From a virus, in the IMG/VR virus record IMGVR_UViG_3300025086_000287, positions 1 to 22,119 of that record: a stretch of DNA of 22,119 nt; one strand, 5' to 3'. The notes below the pieces were generated by a model. It saw only the letters and a list, made by a program, of their open reading frames with translations. It was not told the DNA's origin and did not search any database. Positions 604-21,981 of this stretch are shown in pieces. The translations under genes and the position numbers were made by a program. How positions within the stretch are numbered: the stretch's first letter is position 1; the number at the start of each line of letters is the position of its first letter.

Positions 604-1542
604 ATGGCAGAAACATATCTAACTTTAACTAATAAAGTACTTGCACGACTAAACGAAGTTGAACTAACAAGTTCGACTTTTTCATCGTCTAGAGGTATTC
701 AAACACAAGCTAAAACTGCTATCAATGAGGCTGTAAGATATATAAATCAAAGAGAATACAACTACCCTTTTAATCACGAAACAAAATCACAAACACTTAC
801 GGCAGGAGTAGTTAGATACTCATTACCTACAACCACTAAAGTTGTAGATTACAACACATTTAGAATAGTTAAAGATAGTGACTTGGCAGTTAGCGGAGGC
901 CAACTTTCTATCTTAAATTATAATGACTACGTAAGTAGAGCCATAGAACAAGAAGATGAAATAACAACTACAACATTAAATGGATCACACTCTGACTCAG
1001 TAACTACACTAACACTTACATCAACTACAGGATTTGACTCTTCAGGTACTGCCCATATAGGTAACGAAATTATATCTTATACAGGAACATTAGGTAACGA
1101 TCTTACAGGTGTAACACGAGGTGCAAGCTCTAGTACTGCATCTGCTCACGCTAGTGGAGTTACAGTTGCACAGTTTGATAAAGGAAGTGTACCTACTCAC
1201 GTAGTAAGAACACCCGACAATAACTATTTAATGTATCCTTATCCTGATAAATCATATGTAGTAAAGTTTGATTACTTTACGTATCCTACCGACATGGCTG
1301 CACATGATAGTACAACAACTATACCTGACAGATTTGCTGCAGTTATAGTAGATGGTGCAACTGCATTTATTTATCAATATAGAGGTGAGCTACAACAGTA
1401 CGGTATAAATTTTGAAAGATTTGAACAAGGTATAAAAAATATGCAGAGTTTATTAGTTAATAGATTTGAATATTTAAGGTCTACTTATATACCTTCAAAA
1501 GGTTATGTAGGAAATTCAAAAACAGTATTACGAGTTAATTAA
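604..1542 (+). CDS. Head-to-tail adaptor-like protein (312 aa)
   Basis: The N-terminal third (about residues 1-60) is helical and resembles adaptor/tail-tubular-A type proteins that join the portal to the short tail. The C-terminal 75 residues are again helical (IPDRFAAVIVDGATAFIYQY, then a run of hydrophobic heptads), as in that family. Between them, residues 130-189 form a Thr/Ser-rich beta insert that recurs in the next gene. Position supports the role: it follows the capsid genes and precedes a nozzle-like protein and the fibres. The ATG at 604 directly follows a 4-codon minicistron (ATG at 589, TAG at 601-603), and a GAAAG element 8 nt upstream is only a weak ribosome binding site. The stop overlaps the next start as TAATG. 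The exact subfamily (P22 gp4-like or T7 gp11-like) is not settled from sequence alone. Confidence 0.55.
   Translation: MAETYLTLTNKVLARLNEVELTSSTFSSSRGIQTQAKTAINEAVRYINQREYNYPFNHETKSQTLTAGVVRYSLPTTTKVVDYNTFRIVKDSDLAVSGGQLSILNYNDYVSRAIEQEDEITTTTLNGSHSDSVTTLTLTSTTGFDSSGTAHIGNEIISYTGTLGNDLTGVTRGASSSTASAHASGVTVAQFDKGSVPTHVVRTPDNNYLMYPYPDKSYVVKFDYFTYPTDMAAHDSTTTIPDRFAAVIVDGATAFIYQYRGELQQYGINFERFEQGIKNMQSLLVNRFEYLRSTYIPSKGYVGNSKTVLRVN
991..1170 (+). repeat. Insert domain copy 1, within the adaptor-like protein
   Basis: Residues 130-189 of the adaptor-like protein contain the ordered motifs STTGFDSSGTAHIGNE, ISYTGT, DLTGVTRGASSST and AHASGVTV. The same order and most key residues recur in the following gene (1866-2039). 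Part of the DNA is also alike: CTTACAGGTGTAACACGAG here against CTTACTGGTGTAACACGAG there. Confidence 0.75.
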
Positions 1543-3266
1543 TGCCTGATCAGTCACAAGTACAACCGTTTTCTTTTAACTGTGAAGGCGGTTTAGTTTT
1601 AAACAAGTCTACGTTTATTATGGAACCCGGACAGGCACTAGAGTTAACTAACTTTGAGCCAGATGTTGAAGGTGGATACAGACGTATTAATGGTTTTAAA
1701 CCTTACGTGTATCAACAAGTTCCTGAGACTACACTAAGTACTGAGCCTATACTAATGTCTGCACTATTTAATAACTATATTCTTGCTGCTAGAGGTGAGA
1801 AGATATATAGTTCAGCTAGTACAACACTAAGTCAAAAGATTGCTTCAGCTACTGGTATGACAGGGTCAGGTACTATTAATGTTGTATCTACTACTTCATT
1901 TAGTTCTAGTGGTACTGTAGGCATTAACTCAGAGATATTTACATATACAGGTAAGACAGCCACAACTCTTACTGGTGTAACACGAGCTACTAGTAGTACA
2001 ACTGCTGCTGCCCACTCAGCATCAGATACTGTATCAGAAAGTTGGACAGTAAGAGATACAGGAAGAACATCTGCTTCTAGATACAGATTTGAAAGATTTA
2101 ACTTTGATGGCAACGATAAGTTTATTTTTGTAGATCAAGTAAATGCACCAACTGTATTTAATGCATCTCTTTCTGCAACTGATGTTTCTACTTCTTCTGT
2201 ATCAGGTGCTAAAAACGTAGCTGCATTTAAAAATCATATGTTTTACTCTGGAATGTCGAGTACTCCTCAAGAGATTGTCTTTAGTAAACCTTTTGATGAA
2301 GATGATTTTACTTCTGCTGACGGTGCAGGTAGTATTAAAGTTGACGATACAATTGTAGGAATTAAAGTTTTCCGTGAGGATTTATTTATCTTTTGTGAAA
2401 ACAGAATATTTAAACTGTCAGGAACTTCCAGTACTAACTTTGCAGTTACACCTGTTACTCGTAACATTGGTTGTGTAAATGGAGATACAATACAGGAATT
2501 TGCTGGTGACTTAATATTCTTAGGTCCAGATGGACTACGTACTATTGCTGGTACTGCAAGAATTGGTGACGTTGAGTTAGGTACAATTAGTTCTAATGTT
2601 CAATCTATATTTAGAGAAAACCTTAGTGACTCAACAAACTTTACATCATTAGTAATACCTGACAAGACACAGTACAGAATATTCTTTTCTAAAGATGGTG
2701 GCGCACAAGCTGCTACATTAGGAGTAATATGTGTTTTAAAAGGACAGAACTTTGAGTTTTCACAAATGAAAGGTATACGTCCTAATTGTACAGATAGTGT
2801 TGTAGAAGCAGGAGATGTTATACCTGTACATGGTGGTTTTGATGGGTACGTATATAGACAAGACCAAGGTGATACATTTGACGGTACATTAATTCAAGCT
2901 AAGTATCGTAGTCCAGATCTTACCTTTGGAGATCCGGGCATTAGAAAACATATGCAAAGGGTAAATATAAATTACGCACCTGAATCAACTATTGACGCAG
3001 ATATGTTTGTAAGGTATGATTACGAAGATGCAAACTCCACACGACCTGCAGCGTATGCGTTAGATAGTTTAAATGTAGGTGGTGTGTATGGGTCTTCAGT
3101 CTATGGCACAGCGTCATACGGTGGTCCTTCATCACCCATCGTTAGAAAATCAGTAGAGGGTTCAGGCTTTGCTGTAGCATTAAGAGTAGAAGATGGGGCT
3201 AATTCAACTGGTCCATATTCATTAAAAGGATTTCAAATGGAGTTTCAATTAGGGGCTAGAAGATAA
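1542..3266 (+). CDS. Tail nozzle/hub-like structural protein (574 aa)
   Basis: The N-terminus carries a pattern common in podoviral nozzle/stabilisation proteins (P22 gp10-like, T7 gp12-like): a GGLVLNKSTFIMEPGQALEL segment, then NFEPDVEGGYRRINGFKPY. Most of the rest is beta-strand-rich with repeated short blades (for example GVICVLKGQNFEFSQMKGI), consistent with the beta-propeller expected at the tail tip. Residues 109-166 are a Thr/Ser-rich insert homologous to one in the preceding adaptor-like protein. There is no signal peptide, membrane segment or obvious enzyme motif. It starts in a TAATG overlap with only a weak ribosome binding site, so translational coupling to the adaptor gene is likely. 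The family is 472 aa in P22 and nearly 800 aa in T7, so 574 aa is in range. The assignment rests on motifs and gene order. Confidence 0.5.
   Translation: MPDQSQVQPFSFNCEGGLVLNKSTFIMEPGQALELTNFEPDVEGGYRRINGFKPYVYQQVPETTLSTEPILMSALFNNYILAARGEKIYSSASTTLSQKIASATGMTGSGTINVVSTTSFSSSGTVGINSEIFTYTGKTATTLTGVTRATSSTTAAAHSASDTVSESWTVRDTGRTSASRYRFERFNFDGNDKFIFVDQVNAPTVFNASLSATDVSTSSVSGAKNVAAFKNHMFYSGMSSTPQEIVFSKPFDEDDFTSADGAGSIKVDDTIVGIKVFREDLFIFCENRIFKLSGTSSTNFAVTPVTRNIGCVNGDTIQEFAGDLIFLGPDGLRTIAGTARIGDVELGTISSNVQSIFRENLSDSTNFTSLVIPDKTQYRIFFSKDGGAQAATLGVICVLKGQNFEFSQMKGIRPNCTDSVVEAGDVIPVHGGFDGYVYRQDQGDTFDGTLIQAKYRSPDLTFGDPGIRKHMQRVNINYAPESTIDADMFVRYDYEDANSTRPAAYALDSLNVGGVYGSSVYGTASYGGPSSPIVRKSVEGSGFAVALRVEDGANSTGPYSLKGFQMEFQLGARR
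1866..2039 (+). repeat. Insert domain copy 2, within the nozzle-like protein
   Basis: Residues 109-166 of the nozzle-like protein contain STTSFSSSGTVGINSE, FTYTGKT, TLTGVTRATSSTT and AHSASDTV, collinear with residues 130-189 of the adaptor-like protein. The conserved core is F-x-S-S-G-T, a Gly-Ile/Ile-Gly pair, E-I-x-x-Y-T-G, L-T-G-V-T-R, A-H and a terminal T-V. Confidence 0.75.
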
Positions 3267-9351: not shown

Positions 9352-11574
9352 ATGGCAAAGCAGTTTGCAGGTTTTACCAAAGAGCAGGATCAAGCACTAA
9401 AACGAAAAGTTGCTGAACGGTTGGGTCTACCCCCAAACTCACAACAAGATGAAATAGATTTGTTTGTGCAAGCTAGTACTAAAGCGCAAGGTCTTTTGAA
9501 TAACTTTACTGAGGTAGCTAGACGAAAAGTTGCGCCTATGCCTATGGCTACGGGTGGTTTTGTATTTCCTACAAAAAATGCTAGGGGTAATGTTAATAAA
9601 TTAAATCAACAAGACAACCCTGAGTACGCAGAAAATATAGAAAAACAAATGGCTGCAGTTGCAAAGTTACAGAATACTTTTCCTACTCCTCAAGAAGACA
9701 CAAGAAGGTTTCAAGAAGGTGGTACGACAACTGATCCAGCTAAAACATTCCTAGATAATGCACAACAAAACTATTCTACTGCATTAGCGGAACAACAAAC
9801 GGCACGAGATGCTTTAGCGGCAGACCCAAGCAACGCAGAATTAGTTACTGCACTAACTGCGGCTGACTCAAGAGTAGCACAAAGAAATGAAGCAGTTAAT
9901 CAGGCAACAGCACAGTTTAAACAGACTGCTATGCCAACTCCTGCAGAGTTAGTACAACAAAGCACAACAGATCCGCTATCTTTAGCTACAACTGCCGCCA
10001 CAAAGACTACAGCAACAGACCAAGCAACTGCAGGACTTATAGGTCCTACTGCAGGATTAATGGGGGCAACTACAGCGGCAACCCCTACAGCAGCAGATAC
10101 TGCCGCTGCAACAACACCAACAGTCACTCCAGCATCTTTAGCTACTGCCGCACAAGCGGCACCTGGTGTTAAAACAGCTACAGATGCAGCTCAAGCCGCG
10201 CAAGGAACTGTGTCTAGTGCAATGACTGCGGCACAAAAAACACCATCAGAAGCGGCACAGTTAGGATTAACTGCCGCACAAATTGCTGAATCTGCAAGAG
10301 TAGCTGATACTCCAGACAGAACTTTACAAGCAGGAGAAACCATAGCTGGCTCCACTGTTGATATGGCTAGGGTTAAAACAGAAACTAACTTTGAAGCGGC
10401 AACAGGTGCGCCATCTACTGATGCTACTGTGCAAGGACAACTAACTCAACTTATGCAAGACTTCGAGGGGGGTAATCCTCCTGCGTGGGCGGCTGGTGCA
10501 ATGAGAGCCGCAACTGCAGCTATGGCGCAAAGAGGTCTAGGGGCTTCAAGTATGGCAGGGCAAGCAATTATTCAAGCGGCTATGGAAAGTGCTTTACCTA
10601 TTGCTCAGATAGATGCATCTACCTTTGCACGGTTTGAAGAGCAAAACTTATCTAATAAACAACAAGCCGCTATGTTTGCGGCAGAGAAAAGAGCAGAGTT
10701 TTTAGGTTTAGAGTTTAATCAGGGCTTTCAGACTAGGGTATCTAATGCAGCCAAAATATCTGAGATAGCTAATGTTAACTTTACTGCTGATCAACAAGTT
10801 GCTTTAGAGAACGCTCGAATGGCACAGACAGTTGATTTGAATAACCTAAATGCATCTAATGCTAAAATACTTTCTGATGCGGCGGCATTGTCTCAAATTG
10901 ATTTAACTAATCTAAATAATAGACAACAAGCACAATCTCAGAACGCTAAGTCTTTTTTAGATATGGACTTGTCTAACTTAACTAATGCACAACAAACTGA
11001 GATGTTTAAGTCTCAAGCTATCGTAAACTCTTTACTATCAGATCAGGCGGCGGCTAATGCGGCTTCTCAGTTTAATGCCTCAAGTGAAAATCAAACAGAT
11101 CAATTCTTCGGTAATTTAACGGCTCAAGTAGCACAGTTTAACGCAGAACAATCTAATGCACTAACTAAGTTTAATGCAGGGGAAGCAAATGCACTAGAAG
11201 AGTTCAATGCTTCACAAGTTAATCTTAGAGAACAATTTAATGCACAGAACGGTTTAATTATTGAACAAGCTAATGCTGAGTGGTATCAAAAGATAGCAAC
11301 CACAGATAATGCCGCAATCAATCAAGCGAACAGAGATGCAGCGGCACAGGCTAACAATATGACGGCACTAGGGTTTGGTGCATATATGCAAGAGGTTCGT
11401 GACTTAATGTCTTTTGCTTGGCAAACATCAAACAATGATGCAGAAAGAGCAACCACCTTAGCAATAGCTAATTTACAAAAAGAAGCAGATGAAGCAAAAG
11501 CTAAAGCAAATAAAAGTTCAGGTCTGTGGGGTGCTGTTGGTAGCATCGGTGCTGCTCTGTTCCGAAAAACTTAA
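9352..11574 (+). CDS. Ala/Gln-rich virion protein with hendecad repeats, putative internal/ejection protein (740 aa)
   Basis: The N-terminal 130 residues are mixed and charged. Residues about 190-320 are a low-complexity Ala/Thr stretch. Residues 360-470 are helical. Residues 495-671 fall into 11-residue units, the clearest being QFNAEQSNALT, KFNAGEANALE, EFNASQVNLRE and QFNAQNGLIIE. The C-terminus ends in GLWGAVGSIGAALF, a short amphipathic glycine-rich tail. This overall build, especially the FNA units followed by an EW-x-Q segment, resembles structural proteins of marine phages. An extended helical rod or tube taking part in DNA ejection is an inference from that pattern and from the gene neighbourhood. 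The ATG at 9352 has AAGGA 7 nt upstream. The 3' end coincides with an out-of-frame extension of the next gene. Confidence 0.6.
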   Translation: MAKQFAGFTKEQDQALKRKVAERLGLPPNSQQDEIDLFVQASTKAQGLLNNFTEVARRKVAPMPMATGGFVFPTKNARGNVNKLNQQDNPEYAENIEKQMAAVAKLQNTFPTPQEDTRRFQEGGTTTDPAKTFLDNAQQNYSTALAEQQTARDALAADPSNAELVTALTAADSRVAQRNEAVNQATAQFKQTAMPTPAELVQQSTTDPLSLATTAATKTTATDQATAGLIGPTAGLMGATTAATPTAADTAAATTPTVTPASLATAAQAAPGVKTATDAAQAAQGTVSSAMTAAQKTPSEAAQLGLTAAQIAESARVADTPDRTLQAGETIAGSTVDMARVKTETNFEAATGAPSTDATVQGQLTQLMQDFEGGNPPAWAAGAMRAATAAMAQRGLGASSMAGQAIIQAAMESALPIAQIDASTFARFEEQNLSNKQQAAMFAAEKRAEFLGLEFNQGFQTRVSNAAKISEIANVNFTADQQVALENARMAQTVDLNNLNASNAKILSDAAALSQIDLTNLNNRQQAQSQNAKSFLDMDLSNLTNAQQTEMFKSQAIVNSLLSDQAAANAASQFNASSENQTDQFFGNLTAQVAQFNAEQSNALTKFNAGEANALEEFNASQVNLREQFNAQNGLIIEQANAEWYQKIATTDNAAINQANRDAAAQANNMTALGFGAYMQEVRDLMSFAWQTSNNDAERATTLAIANLQKEADEAKAKANKSSGLWGAVGSIGAALFRKT
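10834..11364 (+). repeat. Hendecad (11-residue) protein repeat region
   Basis: Encodes residues 495-671. Three 22-residue units begin DLNNLNA, DLTNLNN and DLSNLTN (495, 517, 539). From 573 onward, single 11-residue units begin at 573, 584, 595, 606, 617, 628 and 639, most with [QKE]-F-N-A. The phase is kept over about 16 units. Eleven-residue periodicity is the known signature of right-handed coiled coils or helical sheets. Confidence 0.8.
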
Positions 11575-11593
11575 TGCCAACGAAAGTATTACT

Positions 11594-12460
11594 ATGGCTG
11601 AGATAGAGAATGTTGGACTAGGTAGTCCTAGACCTATAAAAAGACCAGAAAATTTAGCTGAAGAGTTTGATAGGGTACTTAAAAATAATTCAGATGATAA
11701 TGAAATAAAACCTATTTTGCGCCCTAAGTTTGATGCAAGTAAGTTTTTAGATAAGATTATAAACTTATCATCTCCTGCTCCAAAACTTCGTCCTGAAGGT
11801 ACAGGAAAGACTGTAGTTGATGTTAGATTAAACAACGCAAACGCATCTATACAAAATTTATTAGATAAAATATCTGAAGCAGAAGGAACAACAACAGAGA
11901 AATTAAAGGAGATGAAAGTAAAAGATACTAGTCCTTATGATGCAGTGTATGGCTACAATCTTTTAACACCCGAAAAACGTGTTAGTAAAATGACACTAAA
12001 AGAATTATATACGTTTCAAGGTAAACTTATTGAAAAAACTATAGGCGAGGTAAAAGGTGCAGAGGAAAATGAAGGTACTTCGGCAGTAGGAAAGTTTCAA
12101 ATAGTAAGAAACTCTTTGTTTGGAAAAGGAGGAACTGCTGAAAAACCGACAGATACTTCTTGGGCAGGAGTGTTAGGGTTAGACGAAAAAACAGTTTTTA
12201 CTCCTGAGATACAAGAAAAAATAGCTAGGCTTGCCCTTAAAGAATCGGGCTATAACGCTTTTGTACAAGGTAATAAAACTCAAGAAGAACTTTTAAATGG
12301 AATTGCAAACATATGGGCATCTGTAGCGGATACGTCAGGTACAAGTAAATATGAACAACCTATTGGGGTAAAACCAAATATATTACTTCCTTTAATTAAT
12401 GATGTAAAAATTAATGCTGATGGACGAATTATAAAAGTTACCGAATTAAGAAAGAAATAA
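11594..12460 (+). CDS. Muramidase-like (lysozyme-fold) virion or lysis protein (288 aa; longer start possible)
   Basis: From the ATG at 11594 the first 75 residues are a Pro-rich linker with three RP motifs (SPRPIKRPE, KPILRPKF, PAPKLRPEG). The rest resembles a phage muramidase family. It has ISEAEGT with candidate catalytic Glu at 95 or 97, YDAVYGYN, SKMTLKELYTFQ, and EGTSAVGKFQIV (about residues 160-171), the usual S-x-x-G-x-[YF]-Q element of lysozyme-like domains. It would cut peptidoglycan, either as part of the ejection apparatus (as the T7 gp16 N-terminus does) or as endolysin. The frame is open upstream to 11468, and an ATG at 11489 would add 35 residues resembling a signal peptide but would overlap the previous gene by 86 nt. 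I chose 11594 because long same-strand overlaps are rare. Neither start has a good ribosome binding site. Confidence 0.6.
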   Translation: MAEIENVGLGSPRPIKRPENLAEEFDRVLKNNSDDNEIKPILRPKFDASKFLDKIINLSSPAPKLRPEGTGKTVVDVRLNNANASIQNLLDKISEAEGTTTEKLKEMKVKDTSPYDAVYGYNLLTPEKRVSKMTLKELYTFQGKLIEKTIGEVKGAEENEGTSAVGKFQIVRNSLFGKGGTAEKPTDTSWAGVLGLDEKTVFTPEIQEKIARLALKESGYNAFVQGNKTQEELLNGIANIWASVADTSGTSKYEQPIGVKPNILLPLINDVKINADGRIIKVTELRKK

Positions 12461-14039: not shown

Positions 14040-14600
14040 ATGGCAGAACTAATACAAGGTCCAATACCAGGACAATCTTTAACTGACTTACCTAAAAACT
14101 CTCCGTGGGAAAACCCTGCAGAGATAACTGAAGTAAGTGATGTAGCTAAACACTATATTGAACGGTTAGCTGATGATGATATTATGGATGATCTTACAAT
14201 AGTATTTAAACTGGGAGGAGACTTAAAGACGGTGACTGAAACTATTATGATGACAGGAGCTATGAATGGTGTGCATACCGTTGATGCAGGAATGTTAGCT
14301 GGCCCTGTTGTTGCTAGTTTTATTAAGATAGCAATGGAAGGGTATGGTATTGAAACCCCAGAAACAGGCGTTTCCCCAGAAGAAAAAGCTGAAGCAAAAA
14401 CATACGCTAGAGTTCTGAAGTTAGTTGAAATGGCACGAGAAAAAGGAAATAATGAAGAGGGTGACGCAGGAGATGAGCTACTTGCTGAAATGAGTAGTGC
14501 CATAGAAACTATGCCAGAGGCATCAGAAATAGAAGAAGCACCTGTTGAACCAGAAAGTAGTGATACTGGTGAGGGTCTTATGTCACGGGGAGTAGTATAA
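14040..14600 (+). CDS. Conserved acidic phage protein, probably virion-associated (186 aa)
   Basis: The N-terminus has the pattern GPIPGQSLTDLPKNSPWENP, which I recall from hypothetical proteins of cyanophages and other marine phages. Residues 30-105 form a helical core (VAKHYIERLADDD, ETIMMTGAMNGVHTVDAGML, GPVVASFIKIAMEG). The last 75 residues are strongly acidic and end in GLMSRGVV. The GLMS motif recurs in the next protein. AAGGT precedes the ATG by 10 nt, and the stop overlaps the next start (TAATG). No enzyme motif is seen. Linkage to the 949- and 1304-aa genes suggests a minor virion or assembly protein. Confidence 0.6.
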   Translation: MAELIQGPIPGQSLTDLPKNSPWENPAEITEVSDVAKHYIERLADDDIMDDLTIVFKLGGDLKTVTETIMMTGAMNGVHTVDAGMLAGPVVASFIKIAMEGYGIETPETGVSPEEKAEAKTYARVLKLVEMAREKGNNEEGDAGDELLAEMSSAIETMPEASEIEEAPVEPESSDTGEGLMSRGVV

Positions 14601-17449
14601 TGGATATTGATTGGAAAGCATTTGCAGAAGAGTTTTTAAGAGGCACTGCAACCTATATTAATGAGGACAAGGATGCTGCTCGTGCATTTAGAGAAAAGTT
14701 AAAAGAAGATGCAGAAGAAGGTAAGAAAGTTGTAATTAAAATGGATGTAGCTGCAAAAAGTATGTTACAACAAACAACAATAGCCGAAAACTTAGGTGCT
14801 ACACCAGGTATGATAGCCGCTGCTCTTACTTCTGGACCTGATGGCATTACAAAACTCGCTACAAAAATGCAAAGTATAAAAAATGCGTACACCTCAGAAG
14901 GGTTTGCTTACGATGATGCCGCAAAAGCAGAGGCAATAACAAAAGTAGAATTACCAGAACTATATGGTGCTGATTTTGCAAAACCTGAAGGGGGCTGGAA
15001 AACATTAGTAGATAAATACTTCAATGTAGGTGCAGGAACAATAGGAGATTACAAAGCACCACAACAAAGTATATTTGCACGAGCAATGGGACAAAATGCT
15101 AAAGATTACATCCGACAAGATTTAGATGCCGAAAAAGGTTTTATGGGACTAAGTACCTACGATTTAAGTCAACTTGATGGTACTAAAACGTATGATATTG
15201 GTGACGATACTGCAGGTTATCTTTCTTGGGGAGACTTAAATTTATTTGGTCAAAGTGCTTTGAAGAATTTGACAAAAAATACTGCTTCACAAGTTCGAGC
15301 TTTAAATACTTTAGAAAGTTTTCAACAGCTAAGAGATTATACTGGTACTCCTAAATTAACTCCATACTATAATCAATTAAATTTAGATCGTCAAATAAAA
15401 TTTGACAACGCAAGCGAAAGTGATAAAGCTAAATATGATTTAACTACAGAATGGAAAAACAACGCAACTTTAGCAGCTAGAAAATATTATCAAGACCAAA
15501 TAAATCAAAGAGTAGCGGAGGCTATAACACCTGATTTATTATCTAATATTCAAAAATATGGCGGCGAAAAAATATTTGGTAATAATCCAGGTTTAGTAAC
15601 ATCTTTTGACAATCAAACATACCCTGGTTTTGTTGCATCCTTACTAGCGGCAGCAGATGATGATTTTGAAGTACCTGATTCTACTGGAACTTCAAGAACG
15701 GAGCTTCCTAATATAATAAATACTGGTGAAGGTGGAAACGGTGACGAAGAAACAGGCTCAGTACCGTTTAATATAGAAAAAGTATTTAGTTATCCAAATT
15801 TAAAATTTTCTGTTGCGGCAGGAGAAAGTAAAACTATAAACAATATTTTTTCTGAATTTAGCGAGAATACAAATTTTACAAATCAAATTAGTTTTAAAGC
15901 TATAAAGACATCCGATGGTTTTAATAGGTTTTCTATGAGAAATAATGAGGAAGATAGAGAAGTTGTATTTGACTTTGATCCTGCGGATAACAGTATTATT
16001 AATATCTTTGTAAGAAGCAATACTGGTGGTGCAACTTATGATCCAGCAGTGTGGGAAGCAATGGCTTTAAATAAAGATAAACTATCTGAATTTTTAAAAA
16101 TAGACATTGCAGAAGTTGAAGGCGGCGAAGATGGAGAGACACCTCCTACTTTTGCCGAAGATGACATAAATGCAGCAGTAGCCGTATTAGGGTCAGACTT
16201 AGATAAATATAAAACTGATGGGGAATTTGACCCTGTAAAGATAAGAAAAGTTATTCAAGGGTGGTCTATAAATAAAGGAAGTGTGGAGTTAAAAGAGGCA
16301 CTAGGACAGGCTACAGGTTTTGGTGGCAATGAGCCTAATATGCCAGCCTTTATTAACAAAATTATTGAAACTTTAGGTGGAACTGTAGAAGTATCCTCTT
16401 TAGAAGAAAAAAACAAAAGTATTACAAATGCTAGTGGCGACGATACAAGCATAGTAGAAAAAATTGTAGATAGTATATTTAGTAAAGTTCACGCATCAAC
16501 TGTACAAAACTTGTCTGCAGATCAGATAGAGACACTAACAGGTGAACAAGGTTTAGATGAACAAGAGATTGAAGCAATTTTAAATATACAAAGGGAAGTT
16601 ATAGAAACCAAAGTTGCTAATAAAGAGTTAGATGTTAATGATCAAAAAGTTAAAATCTTAATTAATGAAGCATCCGTTAATAATAGACTTTTACCTAAAT
16701 CTATTTTGAAAGAGTTTGGATTATATAATGACATAACAAATAAAATTGTTGGGTTTACTGGGTCTAATACTTTAGAAGATAATCCTTTTATATCAAAAGA
16801 CGCACTAAATAGATTAAAAGAAAAAGAGAACATTACAGCAGAATCTACTATTGATGCCGACACTCAAAGAGATATAGCAAGAGGCCCAGCAGATGCCGCT
16901 AATTTAAATTTAGCTAAATTAATTGCAGCAGTTAAGGCAGGTAACATAGAAGAAGCAAATATACTTGCTCAACAGATTGAAGAAGCTAGAGATGAAAACA
17001 CAGATGTTACCCCTCCTGTAAAAACAGATGTCTCAAGTCAGGGACCAGTAGGTGTAGATACTTCTGTTCCTACTTTTGATACTAGCAATATAGGATTGAT
17101 GTCTAAACCTTCTATTGAAGTATCTGAAGATGAAAGTGTAACACGCCCTGTCTTTTCTAGTGGTTTAGGTGCAAAGGAAAACACAGACATTGCTCCTACT
17201 GGTACAGATGAAGACCCAGAGATTTCTATGGTTGTAGATAAAGTAATGGAGGCTGTCCCAGCTAAAAGCACATTAGGAAGAGTTACACCTAACAAGTTAA
17301 AGGTAACGAACTCCCAGCTTCGTAATGCTATTGTAAAAGCATTAGGCGGCAATAATGCACTACCTAAAAACAGTAAAGAACGAAAAACAATGATAGATAA
17401 AATTGCTAAAGCATACATTAGTAGACGTAAAGAAGAGGCATCTAAATAA
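14600..17449 (+). CDS. Large putative internal virion / DNA-ejection protein (949 aa)
   Basis: This is a long, mainly helical, acidic protein without signal peptide or membrane span. The N-terminal 330 residues are rich in amphipathic helix (FAEEFLRGTATYINEDKDAA, QRVAEAITPDLLSNIQKYGG). Residues about 390-480 are beta-prone (FSYPNLKFSVAAGESKTINN, VVFDFDPADNSIINIFVRSN). Residues 510-820 return to helices with many Ile/Glu/Lys. Residues 830-865 carry GLMSKPS and RPVFSSGLGAKE, motifs shared with three upstream proteins, and the last 60 residues are a basic helical tail (QLRNAIVKALGG, KTMIDKIAKAYISRRKEEA). It starts in a TAATG overlap with GGGGAG upstream and ends in another TAATG. Size and position just before the 1304-aa gene recall T7 gp15 followed by gp16, but I cannot show homology. 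Confidence 0.5.
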   Translation: MDIDWKAFAEEFLRGTATYINEDKDAARAFREKLKEDAEEGKKVVIKMDVAAKSMLQQTTIAENLGATPGMIAAALTSGPDGITKLATKMQSIKNAYTSEGFAYDDAAKAEAITKVELPELYGADFAKPEGGWKTLVDKYFNVGAGTIGDYKAPQQSIFARAMGQNAKDYIRQDLDAEKGFMGLSTYDLSQLDGTKTYDIGDDTAGYLSWGDLNLFGQSALKNLTKNTASQVRALNTLESFQQLRDYTGTPKLTPYYNQLNLDRQIKFDNASESDKAKYDLTTEWKNNATLAARKYYQDQINQRVAEAITPDLLSNIQKYGGEKIFGNNPGLVTSFDNQTYPGFVASLLAAADDDFEVPDSTGTSRTELPNIINTGEGGNGDEETGSVPFNIEKVFSYPNLKFSVAAGESKTINNIFSEFSENTNFTNQISFKAIKTSDGFNRFSMRNNEEDREVVFDFDPADNSIINIFVRSNTGGATYDPAVWEAMALNKDKLSEFLKIDIAEVEGGEDGETPPTFAEDDINAAVAVLGSDLDKYKTDGEFDPVKIRKVIQGWSINKGSVELKEALGQATGFGGNEPNMPAFINKIIETLGGTVEVSSLEEKNKSITNASGDDTSIVEKIVDSIFSKVHASTVQNLSADQIETLTGEQGLDEQEIEAILNIQREVIETKVANKELDVNDQKVKILINEASVNNRLLPKSILKEFGLYNDITNKIVGFTGSNTLEDNPFISKDALNRLKEKENITAESTIDADTQRDIARGPADAANLNLAKLIAAVKAGNIEEANILAQQIEEARDENTDVTPPVKTDVSSQGPVGVDTSVPTFDTSNIGLMSKPSIEVSEDESVTRPVFSSGLGAKENTDIAPTGTDEDPEISMVVDKVMEAVPAKSTLGRVTPNKLKVTNSQLRNAIVKALGGNNALPKNSKERKTMIDKIAKAYISRRKEEASK

Positions 17450-20400
17450 TGGCTGATCAACAAGTTAATAGTTCTACAGGTAGTATAGAAGAAGATATTA
17501 GAAGAGCAAATGAATCTACAGGTAGTATAGAAGAATATATTAGAAGAGCGAATGAATCTACAGGTAGTACTGAAACAAAAGAAAGAACCTCTACTTCTAC
17601 TAGGGTAAATCCTTATACGTCTACATCAGCCAGACAGAAACTTAAAGAGGCCGTAGACTTTGGTGGTGAATTAAGTAAAGCACAAATACTTGAAGATAAA
17701 AATAAAGTAGAGATAATACGTAATTATATGATGGCTAGACACGGCTCAAAGTATGATTCAACTAGAGCTATTGCTATTCCTGATACAAAGCTTGTAAATG
17801 ATTTTGTTCAGCATATGAGATACTTTACTGCTAATGTAGCTTCTACCGCTGGTGAATCTTATTGGGCATTTAATACAGCTACGGAAGACCAAAAACAAAT
17901 GGCTGGAGAAGCTTATCAATTATTTGATAAACTAGGTAATGTGTTTACTACAGGAACTGCAGGTGAAAAAATAACAGGAGTTAAAGATTATATTTTTGCT
18001 TCAGCTAAAGATCCCACAAACTATCTAGGTCTTGCAACAGGAGGCCTTTCTAAGTTTTTTACATTTGGGGCAAGTCAATCAGGAAAGACTGCCGTAAAAA
18101 GAGCAATGATACAAGCAGGTAAAGATGCCCTGTTAAAGAAAAAATCTAAAAATGCTGTAGTAAAAGCTATGAACACAGCAAAGACTAAAACTGCTGAAAC
18201 ATTAACAAAACAGTTTGCTAAATCTAAAGCAGGTAAAGAATTAATAAAAGAAGCAGGAGAAAATGCAGCTAAGTTTGAAACTAAAAAAATTCAAGCAACA
18301 GCTACAAACAATTTTAGAAGGTCTTTGTTAAATAGTGCCGCACGAAAGTCTTTACTGGCTACGGGCGCACTTGATGGTATAATTGCTGTAGGTCAAGATG
18401 CTCAGTACCAAGCAACCTACATAGAAACTGGAGCGCAAGCTGATTTTAATGAGTTTCAAAGTGCCGCTAGTTTTGCATTAGGTATTGTTGCGGCTGGAGG
18501 ACAATATACTTTTCAAAAGGCAGGACAAAAAAGTAGAAGTAAAGTAGACACAAAACTAAAAACTAAAATTAGAAAGAGTGCTAGGTTACTTAACACTCCG
18601 TTACTTTCTTTGAATTGGAGAAATGCTAAAACTGCTGATGAAGCAGTAAATAAAAACATAAATGATTCTGTTGATGCTTGGGCTAAAAAAGCAAAAGCTG
18701 GTAATTACAAAGACGGTCCTATGTTAAAAACTGAATTGCTTATGGAGATTGTACTAGGGGGCGACAAAAAAGGTGGGCTAGTTGAGCTATACAGAAAAAA
18801 TTCAGGTGGAACCCGTCTTGCTGCAGATGTACAGTTCTCTGATTTAATGTCTTTAATGACCCAGTATCTTAGCCCTGCTAATGTAAAAAAGATAGCTAAA
18901 AAGATAAACGCAGTAGATCCATACATAAAATTAGAAGATATGACTAATGCAAAAGCTCTTAAAACAACTTTAGGAGATATAATAAAAGACAACGCAAGTA
19001 TGGCAGGAAGAACTCTAAATGTACACAGTCAAGGACGAAAAGCATTAGATGCCGCAATAACAGCGTCCGAAATGGCTATGGCAGCACAAATACGTGCGCT
19101 TGATCCTGATGGCGTGATAGACTTTATACCTTTAATGGAGTACAAAAAAGGGCAAAGAGTTATACACAATAATGAAATATACACTGTTAAAAAAGATCAT
19201 AAATCAAAGAAAGCCTTTGAACTATCTAATTTTGAAATAGACAGAAACCCAAAGCCAATATCATATGGAGTAAATCTTTGGCGGCGATTGTTAGTTTCTT
19301 TACCTCAAACAACAGCACTAAACTTAAAAGGCTTTGCATCAATTTATACAGGCAATGGTTTAGCAGAGTTATTATCCGCAACTCAGTATAGCGCGGCTGC
19401 TATGTTGACAAGCGGAGCAAAAAGACAAGAAATGTTGCGTATGCGAAACATATACTTTCAAACACAGTCAAAGAAGTTTCAAAGTTTTTTCAATCCTTCC
19501 GATACATTTGAAACTTTTGAAGCCGTGCTAGAAAATAATAGGGATGCGCGAAAAGTTTTAACTGAAGCATACTATATGGGTGTGGAAAAGGCAGGGCCTC
19601 GTTTTGGAATGGACCCAGAAGGAACTGCAATTAGAACTTTAGAAACAACTGCAAATGTTGCTAATGCAGTTTCAGGCGTAAGATTACAAGATTTATTTAC
19701 TAAATCTCAATTCTTTATTCCTGAACTAGATAAGTTTCTTAAAATGAAACACAACAAAAGTTTAGATGAGATAATAGACTCAGGAGAATACTCTTTAATT
19801 GATGGTGAATCTATTGCATTTGCTGTTGATGGAACGCAAAAAGCAGTTTTCTCTAAAGATTACAGAAATATGAAAGGTGGTGGTGCTGCTGATCTTTTGT
19901 CAGGAGTTGCTCAGTTTGTAGAATTCACTTCAAAAATTGCTCCCTTTAACTTTATTCTTCCTTTTGGAAGGTTCTTGAACAATGTAGTTGCAACAGCACA
20001 TCAGTATGGTCCTACTGGTTTAATAGAAAGTGGTGTTGTTGAAGCAGTACGAAAAGCAAAACAAGCTGGAGGTGGTAAGGTAGCTCCTCGTTCAATATTA
20101 GAAAAAGCAAATGCACAGTCTGATTTTAACAAGGCATTAGTTGGAACAGGCGCACTTGTAGGTGTTACTCAATATCAATTTAATAAGTCTGAAGAGTTAG
20201 GAACATTTGAAGTTGATGGTCCTGGTGGAACAATTATTGATCACGAGTTTAACTTTCCTTTTTCATTGTTGTTAGCTGGAGGGGAGTATATTAAAAGTAG
20301 GATTGTTAATTCACCCGATTATGATGCAGAACAAAAAGAATGGAATTTTGAAAATGCTGCAGCAAAGGGTAGAGATTTAATAATAGGAAATCCATCCCCA

Positions 20401-21363
20401 GAGGCAAAAGATAATTTATTTAAACAGATAGGTGTAGGTCAGTTTATGACTAACAGTCAGTTTGGAAATGATTTAAATGCAATTTTAGATTTGTTATCTG
20501 CTGGAGTTAGAACAGGAAGAGAAAAAGACCAAGCAGATAAATTTATTCAAACAGGAGCATTATTATTTGCTGGGGCTACTAGACCCTTTGGAATGGCTAA
20601 TGATTTAACTGGTATGATAATGGGTTATGATACAGCTAAAGATCCTAGACAAACTATGGGTGGAAGGGAAGTATTTACGGAAAGTGCTACAAGGTACACA
20701 GGGCATATACTTCGTGCCGTTAATGAAAAGCTAGGGGAAGTTCTTTATGGAGAAGACAAAGCTAAAAAAATAACTGAAGCTATTACGTCTAAAGATTTCG
20801 TTAGTGCGCTTAGAGGAGGACGTATTGCGTCTTCAGGAAACCCATTTTCTAAAGTATTAGGGGTTAGGTATGACGAAGGTAAAACTAATACAGAGGCACT
20901 TGTAGCTGTGTTAGGAACAAATGACTACCAGTTAAATCAACGCACAAATCAACCTGCCTTAGACGAAACATTTAATAGAATAATACAACCTATTTTAGAC
21001 AGGCAAGCAAGACTATTATTAAGTAGTAAAACCTTTATGGAAGCACCTGAACTTAGAAAAAGACAGATCTTTGAAGGCCTACTTAAAACAATGAAAGAGG
21101 ACACTAGAAGAATAGTAGATGATTTAGGTAGCGTTGATGACGGTACGTTTAGATCATTAAAAGCAAACGAATTTAATAATGGCAAATATACAAAAGCAGT
21201 TAAAACAGAAGCTCTTCAGTATATGGAGAAAAATGGAAAACCAACTCAAATAAGAGATATGAGTGCTGGAGATCTTGAGATATTATTATTTTATGCTGAA
21301 CAAATAAACTTTGACGTTAATCAGTACGTTGAAACTTTTAAAGCTGGCAGACTAATAAAATAA
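17449..21363 (+). CDS. Very large putative DNA-ejection / internal core protein (1304 aa)
   Basis: This is the last and longest gene of the + strand block, close in size to T7 gp16 (1318 aa). Residues 9-41 are an in-frame tandem repeat with core STGSIEE-[DY]-IRRANE. Residues about 180-330 are Lys/Ala-rich amphipathic helices with short hydrophobic stretches (NYLGLATGGLSKFF, ATGALDGIIAVG, ASFALGIVAAGG) that could contact membrane. Residues 780-1304 resemble the C-terminal parts of giant marine phage virion proteins: QFFIPELDKFLKMKHNKSLD, FVEFTSKIAPFNFILPFGRF, GRDLIIGNPSPEAKDNL, ARLLLSSKTFM. No separate lytic domain is seen, in keeping with a muramidase-like gene elsewhere in the block. It starts in a TAATG overlap with AGAAGAGG upstream. 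The ejection role is inferred from size, composition and gene order. Confidence 0.6.
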   Translation: MADQQVNSSTGSIEEDIRRANESTGSIEEYIRRANESTGSTETKERTSTSTRVNPYTSTSARQKLKEAVDFGGELSKAQILEDKNKVEIIRNYMMARHGSKYDSTRAIAIPDTKLVNDFVQHMRYFTANVASTAGESYWAFNTATEDQKQMAGEAYQLFDKLGNVFTTGTAGEKITGVKDYIFASAKDPTNYLGLATGGLSKFFTFGASQSGKTAVKRAMIQAGKDALLKKKSKNAVVKAMNTAKTKTAETLTKQFAKSKAGKELIKEAGENAAKFETKKIQATATNNFRRSLLNSAARKSLLATGALDGIIAVGQDAQYQATYIETGAQADFNEFQSAASFALGIVAAGGQYTFQKAGQKSRSKVDTKLKTKIRKSARLLNTPLLSLNWRNAKTADEAVNKNINDSVDAWAKKAKAGNYKDGPMLKTELLMEIVLGGDKKGGLVELYRKNSGGTRLAADVQFSDLMSLMTQYLSPANVKKIAKKINAVDPYIKLEDMTNAKALKTTLGDIIKDNASMAGRTLNVHSQGRKALDAAITASEMAMAAQIRALDPDGVIDFIPLMEYKKGQRVIHNNEIYTVKKDHKSKKAFELSNFEIDRNPKPISYGVNLWRRLLVSLPQTTALNLKGFASIYTGNGLAELLSATQYSAAAMLTSGAKRQEMLRMRNIYFQTQSKKFQSFFNPSDTFETFEAVLENNRDARKVLTEAYYMGVEKAGPRFGMDPEGTAIRTLETTANVANAVSGVRLQDLFTKSQFFIPELDKFLKMKHNKSLDEIIDSGEYSLIDGESIAFAVDGTQKAVFSKDYRNMKGGGAADLLSGVAQFVEFTSKIAPFNFILPFGRFLNNVVATAHQYGPTGLIESGVVEAVRKAKQAGGGKVAPRSILEKANAQSDFNKALVGTGALVGVTQYQFNKSEELGTFEVDGPGGTIIDHEFNFPFSLLLAGGEYIKSRIVNSPDYDAEQKEWNFENAAAKGRDLIIGNPSPEAKDNLFKQIGVGQFMTNSQFGNDLNAILDLLSAGVRTGREKDQADKFIQTGALLFAGATRPFGMANDLTGMIMGYDTAKDPRQTMGGREVFTESATRYTGHILRAVNEKLGEVLYGEDKAKKITEAITSKDFVSALRGGRIASSGNPFSKVLGVRYDEGKTNTEALVAVLGTNDYQLNQRTNQPALDETFNRIIQPILDRQARLLLSSKTFMEAPELRKRQIFEGLLKTMKEDTRRIVDDLGSVDDGTFRSLKANEFNNGKYTKAVKTEALQYMEKNGKPTQIRDMSAGDLEILLFYAEQINFDVNQYVETFKAGRLIK
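17473..17571 (+). repeat. 42-bp in-frame tandem repeat (about 2.4 copies)
   Basis: Copies lie at 17473-17514 and 17515-17556, with a partial third at 17557-17571. Each encodes 14 residues, STGSIEE-[DY]-IRRANE. The two full copies differ at very few bases (GAT/TAT and GCA/GCG), so the duplication is recent or kept uniform. The length is a multiple of three, so copy-number change would not break the gene. Confidence 0.9.
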
Positions 21364-21364
21364 A

Positions 21365-21568
21365 CTACTTGATACCGTGCATTTCTACGCTTCGTTTTGC
21401 CCACAACTCTGTTTCCACTAAATGAAGTAGAGCGTTATCTAGCTCCACCTTATTATGAAGGTTCTCTTGCAATAACTTTTGTAGTGGCTTCATCAAACCA
21501 TTAAACTCGTTTTGAAATTTAGATCTTTTTCGGTTTATGTGTGCGTTAGCTTCTTGTTGTAGTTTCAT
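21365..21568 (-). CDS. Small helical protein, unknown; faint Acb2-like C-terminal helix (67 aa)
   Basis: The protein is predicted to be nearly all helix: a first helix over residues 5-35 (INRKRSKFQNEFNGLMKPLQ) and, after a short polar turn, a second over 40-64 (ELDNALLHLVETELWAKRSV). A two-helix hairpin with A-L-x-x-L-x-x-x-x-x-W-A in the second helix recalls small phage proteins of the Acb2 type, which bind cyclic nucleotide signals of the CBASS defence. The likeness is weak and comes from memory of the pattern only. Its ATG overlaps the stop of the endonuclease VII gene by 4 nt (ATGA), so the two are probably translationally coupled. It ends in TAG one base from the stop of the convergent 1304-aa gene. 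Confidence 0.65.
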   Translation of the reverse strand: MKLQQEANAHINRKRSKFQNEFNGLMKPLQKLLQENLHNKVELDNALLHLVETELWAKRSVEMHGIK

Positions 21569-21981
21569 TGTTTTTCTTCTTTGCTTTGTAATAGATATTT
21601 AATTGCTCTTTTTAAAGAAGTTATATTGTCTTGAAGTTGCCCCAATCCCATATTACATCTTTGACACAGATACCCCCTAAATTCACTAGTCTCCCAACAA
21701 TGATCCAATACCCAAGTGTTGCCCCCTGAAAAAGATAAATGTTCCAAGTCTTCTTTATTTTTTTCGCAAATAGGACAAGTATATTTATCATCAGGGTATG
21801 GATTATCCTTTTTAAGTGCAGCTCGTAGTTTTGAGTTTTTATTTCCACAAGAGTTACATTCAGGTCTTACATAGATAACACCAGGAAAGCTTTTAATATT
21901 CTTTACTTCACCACAAACACGACACTTTTTGGTGTCCCCAGGTTCTAGGTTGTGTTCAGTAGCAAAAAGATCTAACTGCAC
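21565..21981 (-). CDS. Recombination endonuclease VII family protein (138 aa)
   Basis: Residues 20-45 hold two CxxC pairs (C20/C23, C42/C45), the N-terminal zinc ribbon common in phage members. The core has CPIC (C69/C72), VLDHCWETSEFRGYLC (D93, H94) and CQRCNMGLGQLQDN (C106/C109, N110). This matches the Zn-binding and His-Me-finger plan of T4 endonuclease VII (Cys4 zinc, D-H, and Asn after the last Cys). The enzyme resolves Holliday junctions and other branches before packaging. The usual pattern is L-D-H-x-H, but here the second His is Trp (W96). The start codon is GTG, overlapping the upstream TAG by one base (TAGTG) with only a weak ribosome binding site. At 138 aa it is slightly shorter than T4's 157. 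Confidence 0.85.
   Translation of the reverse strand: MQLDLFATEHNLEPGDTKKCRVCGEVKNIKSFPGVIYVRPECNSCGNKNSKLRAALKKDNPYPDDKYTCPICEKNKEDLEHLSFSGGNTWVLDHCWETSEFRGYLCQRCNMGLGQLQDNITSLKRAIKYLLQSKEEKQ

Follow-up and report, generated by a model that had tools for sequence, protein, structure and literature searches.

A 740-amino-acid protein (P0001; 9352-11574, plus strand) encoded by a 22,119-base virus contig (IMG/VR record IMGVR_UViG_3300025086_000287; hereafter the window, that is, the whole stretch of DNA analyzed) contains between residues 429 and 670 (10636-11361, plus strand) a 242-residue rod of 22 hendecads in unbroken phase. The span enclosing this rod differs from that of the window by an exact multiple of 11 residues in each of the 215 family proteins in which it could be measured, and such strict length steps suggest an exactly registered rod. 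Structure prediction makes a helix likely over residues 429-670, and the protein is probably a virion component of the DNA-ejection cassette of a short-tailed phage. A further reading, drawn by analogy, is that several copies stand side by side in a DNA-ejection channel, as in the tube formed by protein H of phiX174; taken as a whole chain of steps, we regard this as evenly balanced between true and false.

The Source Phage and Its Late Genes

The source phage is an HMO-2011-type podovirus, a member of an abundant and widespread sea-water group that infects bacteria. Relatives of the window among annotated phages amount to 27 records of HMO-2011-type podoviruses and their cousins, comprising roseophages, pelagiphages, HMO-2011, Vibrio phage CHOED and phages of Aeromonas, Pseudoalteromonas, Rhizobium and Sinorhizobium; a host is named in 26 of these records and is proteobacterial every time. 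The named relatives are described as short-tailed (PMC9038755), and the tape-measure role entertained in the preliminary description is unlikely for a short-tailed phage. In nearly all annotated relatives the product of the rod gene is listed as 'hypothetical'. In phage ctYwJ313 (L092, 1604-4195) it is annotated 'huntingtin', perhaps on account of its Gln/Asn-rich repeats.

The window opens with tail-tube-like genes (604-3266, plus strand) encoding tubeA-like (312 aa) and tubeB-like (574 aa) proteins with matches to PHROG tail/connector families, followed by two long fiber-like genes, a holin-like gene and the rod gene, relatives of which occur throughout the HMO-2011-type phages. Downstream lie an adjoining lysozyme/endolysin-like gene (11489-12460, plus strand, 323 aa as listed; phrog_90 endolysin, E 5.6e-7), four more genes and a 1304-aa gene. 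These include a gene for a 186-aa protein (14040-14600, plus strand; IPGQSLT...) that shares an operon with the rod gene, and the late cassette ends in two large genes (949 and 1304 aa; 14600-21363, plus strand) whose order is kept and whose sizes are similar in the named phages.

Some features of the annotation deserve mention in their own right. As listed, the lysozyme-like ORF shares 86 bases with the end of the rod gene (window 11489-11594), its true start being more likely near 11594 (MAEIENVG...). The tubeB-like gene (1542-3266) carries the PHROG name 'amidase' (phrog_5107, E 1.7e-84) and its homologs in CHOED and Slicky01 are annotated 'dimodular nonribosomal peptide synthetase'; both names look like inherited misnomers. 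At the start of the 1304-aa gene there is a 42-bp direct repeat (17473-17569; 2.3 copies, 96% matches) that is in frame and encodes STGSIEE-IRRANE repeats. Finally, a small Cys-rich gene with CxxC pairs (HCWETSEFRGYLCQRCN) occupies 21565-21981 on the minus strand, opposite to the late genes, and presumably resembles an endonuclease VII-type recombination nuclease.

The Repeat and the Predicted Helix

The preliminary description located in-phase hendecads at residues 495-671 of the ORF, correctly converted to bases 10834-11364. The repeat itself is real: the five leading autocorrelation lags over these residues are 22 (z 6.0), 11 (z 5.2), 44 (z 5.0), 33 (z 3.9) and 55 (z 3.5), against a maximum z of 4.5 at any lag in 2000 composition-preserving shuffles. 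The extent then given was too short, since the phase runs free of gaps from about residue 429 (EEQNLSNKQQA) to 670, equal to eleven 22-mers. The switch from 22-residue DL-x-NL units to 11-residue FNA units stands as described, at about residue 561. Before it, six 22-residue units (residues 429-560; 10636-11031, plus strand) follow the consensus D-L-x-N-L-[SN]-N-x-Q-Q-x-A-L-x-N-A-x-x-x-x-x-M, and according to consensus and harmonics they carry two hydrophobic seams; after it, the conserved junction LLSDQAAANAASQFNA and 11-residue units of the form x-x-F-N-A-x-x-x-N-x-I (residues 561-670; 11032-11361, plus strand) present one hydrophobic face. Asn at position 4 is the commonest single residue of the repeat, being found in 14 of the 22 window units and at a median of 67% across 59 non-redundant relatives. 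Tandem Repeats Finder detected no DNA repeat in the rod region of the window and rod dN/dS against near relatives is 0.03-0.08 (pairs with computable dS), so the repeat in the window is one maintained at the protein level.

Outside the rod, the N-terminal half contains a predicted helical hairpin (residues 129-193; 9736-9930, plus strand), modeled by AlphaFold as helices 129-157 and 162-193 with pLDDT of about 80-88. The rod is flanked by two conserved non-repeat segments that served as HMM anchors, an N-terminal one with invariant alignment columns (residues 375-425; 10474-10626, plus strand; PPAWAAGAMRAATAAMAQRGLGASSMAGQAIIQAAMESALPIAQIDA...) and a C-terminal one (residues 676-708; 11377-11475, plus strand; AYMQEVRDLMSFAWQTSNNDAERATTLAIANL), and the tail listing shows that the C-terminal tail (residues 709-740; 11476-11571, plus strand) ends in a Gly-rich apolar segment. 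The protein matched no family in PHROGs, Pfam or NCBIfam (best Pfam score 16.2 bits, cut-off 32.5 bits), and searches of PDB sequences with the protein and its profile gave no match. Foldseek with the model found nothing useful in the PDB (a single match, E 9.9); its two strong hits to viral proteins, with identities of 33% and 31%, are probably members of the same family. Of 234 matches in a scan of genome contigs with narrow patterns, seven were relatives; each of the seven lies on a MAG contig, and these are read as phage contigs binned with their hosts.

A globular fold for residues 495-671, which would have spoken against a rod, is not predicted; AlphaFold returns nothing but helix, with a confidence that is low to moderate. 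The full-length model has a mean pLDDT of 47 and that of residues 370-740 (38 sequences) is all helix with a mean pLDDT of 56, in which a single helix covers 547-668 (for the most part at a pLDDT of about 60-76, with about 50 upstream); both are models of monomers. A long, gap-free helical hendecad rod, as the preliminary description had it, is nonetheless well supported because proline is absent from all 215 rods, Gly makes up 1.3% of their residues, the AlphaFold models are all helix and lengths change in exact steps of 11. If straight, the rod would measure about 36 nm in the window and from about 23 to about 119 nm in relatives; the 26 nm proposed earlier is correct for 176 residues and falls short of the whole rod.

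The low-confidence models contain helix breaks near residues 451-456, 494-501 and 541-546, which would allow hairpins. They leave room for an ejected protein that builds no tube, with the rod being either a structural part of an internal core that encircles the portal or a bundle folded back on itself in the head, and its length setting a core dimension. This alternative would accommodate the very long members, which could fold back, and it draws on the same cassette evidence as the ejection channel and on the changes of first-half lengths by 22 rather than 11 residues (see below). We hold it to be rather improbable, given a rod that has no Pro and little Gly for turns and a strict 11-residue step through both halves that a hairpin would not demand.

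The Length Rule Across the Family

A total of 247 loci were collected from IMG/VR and annotated phages, and rod length was taken as the span from I417 to R699, both of which lie outside the repeat and were located by HMM. ORFs with the N-terminal anchor numbered 237, those with the C-terminal anchor 229 and those with both 220, five of which were left out on account of an anchor column that was unaligned or out of order; the weakest C anchors scored 11-15 bits (L117, L105). The resulting set includes the window, near-copies and record duplicates (window = L078, CHOED = L102, L076 = L161). When reduced to non-redundant proteins at 70% identity, the multiple-of-11 rule holds in 59 of 59. A separate run, also with anchors outside the repeat, gave multiples of 11 in 77 of 78 proteins (four were dropped for weak anchors), the sole exception being L076, in which the C anchor was misplaced. 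A lack of 11-residue periodicity in homologs, which would have spoken against the hendecad reading, was not observed.

The lengths fall into 17 classes, from -88 to +550 residues relative to the window or 14 to 72 units, and the 87 proteins of class 0 have an identical span. When the rod is split at the conserved junction (residue 564), changes in the first half are multiples of 22 in 56 of the 59 non-redundant relatives and those in the second half are multiples of 11. The flanks served as controls: agreement modulo 11 was observed in 9 of 58 proteins from R699 to the stop codon and in 2 of 49 from the first Met to I417, the two flanks having 46 and 23 distinct lengths. A tree of the 59 proteins, for which the flanks were used together with the final part of the rod, requires 29 length changes.

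Gain of Units and the 110-Residue Ladder

Rods longer than that of the window lie mostly on two ladders of ten units, one of 32, 42, 52, 62 and 72 and the other of 30, 40 and 50, which hold 23 of the 25 non-redundant rods with more than 22 units; the off-ladder classes have 24 and 27. The longest rods, and only these, show a marked 110-residue super-repeat (47% identity at lag 110), and in two of the longest members the rod gene contains 330-bp tandem DNA repeats with 78-80% matches and no indels (L199, 1069-2250, 3.6 copies; L229, 4375-5169, 2.4 copies), which are the recent trace of the addition of ten-hendecad blocks. From the super-repeat and the DNA repeats in long rods it follows that units are gained by unequal exchange. 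The ladder itself could be the outcome of chance plus shared descent.

These repeats, along with the recurrence of 110-residue steps, would also fit the view that the length rule is a mutational by-product, in which unequal crossing-over between repeats generates indels in multiples of 33 bp and structure imposes no constraint. We find this quite improbable: the DNA repeat of the window has decayed with the phase intact, and indels, frequent in the flanks, leave no trace other than multiples of 11 in the 59 non-redundant rods. Crossing-over accounts for the origin of the units and not for a phase that never slips. Since the rod of the window keeps its phase though the DNA repeat is gone, and since the flanks accept indels that the rods do not, non-11 indels in the rod were probably removed by selection.

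A more speculative proposal, doubtful in our own estimate, is that the channel would be built from a modular hendecad helix with two levels of length control: steps of 11 residues would apply everywhere, and long forms would grow by 110 residues at a time (ten hendecads, or about 16.5 nm), giving the forms of 22, 32, 42, 52, 62 and 72 and of 30, 40 and 50 units. Reach might then be tuned by whole modules, in the manner of a tape-measure-like ruler without a long tail.

Faces of the Rod

The preliminary description expected hydrophobicity to peak at a period of 11/3. For the whole rod this does not hold: the main peak is at 2.75 (11/4; power 13.0, shuffle maximum 9.3) and the harmonic at 11/3 (3.67) is no more than at shuffle level. 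The expectation is borne out in the FNA part of the window alone (0.39; shuffle 99% 0.29). The period of 11/4 dominates on account of the 22-mer half, whose two hydrophobic seams on an 11/3 wheel lie near 65 degrees (positions 2, 5 and 9) and 235 degrees (positions 3, 7 and 11). Between them are an uncharged amide/small side, formed by positions 6 and 10 (for the most part Ala or uncharged-polar), and a charged side comprising positions 8 and 1, the most charged of all. The second harmonic reaches 0.39 and 0.34 in the two halves (shuffle 99% 0.03-0.05); the FNA half has one dominant face at 217 degrees (harmonic 0.32, shuffle 99% 0.04) and the 22-mer half a weak one-face moment only.

Tetrabrachion-type right-handed hendecad coiled coils and the undecads of NadA3 share the 11-residue phase with the rod and have one seam at 11/3, from which the first half of the rod differs in its two seams and 11/4 hydrophobic period. 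Of the features that define such coiled coils, an 11-residue repeat without phase slips is present, and a single seam at 11/3 is found in the FNA half and not in the rod as a whole. We infer right-handedness, which a period of 11/3 (3.67) entails only for helices packed along a seam of that period. By the principles of coiled coils, helices that stand side by side in barrels or sheets require two opposite seams.

A single hydrophobic face is also what would be expected if the rod were an 11/3 amphipathic helix of the type of the alpha-synuclein and perilipin repeats, lying on membranes and softening the envelope. Helices of this type typically have 11-residue repeats that contain uncharged polar side chains. 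The one-faced FNA half and the apolar C-terminal tails point in this direction. The 22-mer half with its opposite seams does not, and neither does the content of K, only 3% in the rod, when membrane-lying 11/3 helices are often Lys-rich for contact with lipid heads; such a role appears very improbable.

The closest parallel is protein H of phiX174, likewise a DNA-delivery protein with a hendecad helix and alone among ten comparators in showing lag-11 periodicity (z 4.5). It was also the only phage hendecad rod found in the literature covered, a scope that left outside preprints and most subscription journals. Three hendecads of H are reported to lie in an amide-lined tube with the amide-rich face turned inward (PMC7354561). 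On an 11/3 wheel, the make-up of the rod faces would fit an amide-lined inner face of this type. The two proteins differ in that H forms a decameric tube in a tailless ssDNA phage, in that three hendecads are followed by heptads where the rod family has 14-72 hendecads, and in the lack of a sequence relation (hhalign 0.3%). A likeness of another kind is offered by the tape measure proteins of the lactococcal phages TP901-1 and p2, which have 11- and 18-residue repeats (PMC5099701). These are long helical phage proteins with aromatic-marked 11-residue repeats as in the rod; they differ in setting the length of long tails and, in TP901-1, in mixing repeats of 11 and 18, whereas the phage group of the rod is short-tailed.

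The Probable Ejection Cassette

Homologs of tubeA and tubeB precede the rod gene in 34 and 40 loci, and are found in HMO-2011, CHOED, Slicky01, phiM6, MQM1, HTVC033P and N3_13. On the other side, the 186-aa gene is present downstream in 57 of the 58 loci whose DNA continues for 3 kb or more beyond the rod gene and in all 44 of those that continue for 6 kb or more, and a homolog of the 1304-aa protein occurs within 6 kb in 33 of the 44. The 186-aa protein (IPGQSLT motif) matched nothing in Pfam, PHROG or NCBIfam and may be a second ejection component. The rod gene is thus located, like known ejection proteins, in a late cassette behind tail-tube genes and together with other ejection candidates; the arrangement of the rod gene and its neighbors is that of podoviral ejection proteins.

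In podoviruses of such type, candidate ejectosomal genes are reported to come after tubeB (PMC10386132). For SU10, a run of five proteins, gp20-24, is reported to be present in virions and missing after release, and a periplasmic channel is proposed to be formed by them (PMC9509320). The cassettes of SU10 (gp20-24), Salmonella phage 7-11 (gp20-24), T7 (gp14-16) and P22 (gp7/20/16) resemble the window in their place after the tube genes and in gene order and sizes, and like the window group they have a peptidoglycan hydrolase nearby and, in some members on both sides, a Peptidase_S74 domain. In particular, gp20 of phage 7-11, annotated as a DNA ejection protein, has an equivalent place in a cassette of similar gene sizes and ends in S74. 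Sequence comparison does not extend this likeness: rod anchors and partner genes found no significant match in a nine-protein set (best E 0.03-0.3), 7-11 gp20 shows no demonstrable relation and has no 11-residue repeat, and hhalign against T7 gp13-16, P22 gp7/14/16/20/26 and phiX174 H gave probabilities of 1.7% or less. The ejection role put forward in the preliminary description therefore gains from gene order and partner genes and finds no backing in homology to the ejection proteins compared.

The ends of the protein vary within the family. Peptidase_S74 is found at the C-terminus of the roseophage relatives CRP-3, CRP-212, CRP-235 and CRP-738 (26.7-41.5 bits; cut-off 22), that is, in four of nine relatives scanned, all of one clade, and is absent from the window protein. 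The rod protein of CRP-235 (L097, 1001-3535) combines this domain with an N-terminal LysM (42 bits), which is a case of domain shuffling at both rod ends. Two S74-bearing relatives matched PHROGs, one named 'virion structural protein' and the other 'DNA ejection protein'; the ejection match (CRP-738) covers the S74 end only.

S74 is typical of trimeric fibers and spikes, being best known from endosialidase spikes and fibers, and its presence counts, within that one clade, against an ejection channel. It raises the alternative of a trimeric tail needle or fiber outside the virion, in which the rod would be the shaft, S74 its folding chaperone and the length steps the product of tandem duplication within a coiled coil. 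Known right-handed shafts built of hendecads frequently have three or four chains, rods as long as 119 nm are more readily accommodated outside the head than within it, and the LysM of CRP-235 could bind the wall from outside. We nevertheless consider a trimeric shaft unlikely. It needs one hydrophobic seam where the 22-mer half has two; separate tail-fiber genes precede the rod gene; the P22 needle gp26 shows a heptad-type lag of 14 and not 11; and S74, besides being limited to one clade, also occurs on the annotated ejection protein 7-11 gp20.

Proposed Mechanism and Significance

In the ejection-channel reading, which we prefer, the rod gene would encode an internal virion protein of the ejection cassette, and its residues 429-670 would form one continuous alpha-helix of 22 hendecads. 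As 11 residues would make three turns, inserted units would keep every residue on its face, while an indel of any different size would turn the faces, and no such indel survives. A shift of 4 or 7 residues, equal to a rotation of 33 degrees, would disrupt all four faces together, and this may be why the 11-residue rule is so strict. The two seams, the amide face and the charged face would be the make-up for a barrel or sheet with an amide-lined inside, and several copies, having left the capsid, might align in register and form part of a channel carrying DNA across the envelope.

Certain observations weigh against this model. In addition to the missing homology to T7, P22 and 7-11 ejection proteins and to phiX174 H, the lack of an 11/3 hydrophobic harmonic over the rod as a whole and the low AlphaFold confidence in the first half, a straight rod of 72 units would be too long for a podovirus head and the longest rods exceed the thickness of the envelope.

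If the ejection-channel reading is true, the cassette gains a mechanism and the family would supply a natural length series, from 14 to 72 units of identical phase, with which channel measurement and assembly in podoviruses could be tested. The strict 11-step rule would then also constitute a clean natural experiment on rotational phase in a helical barrel.
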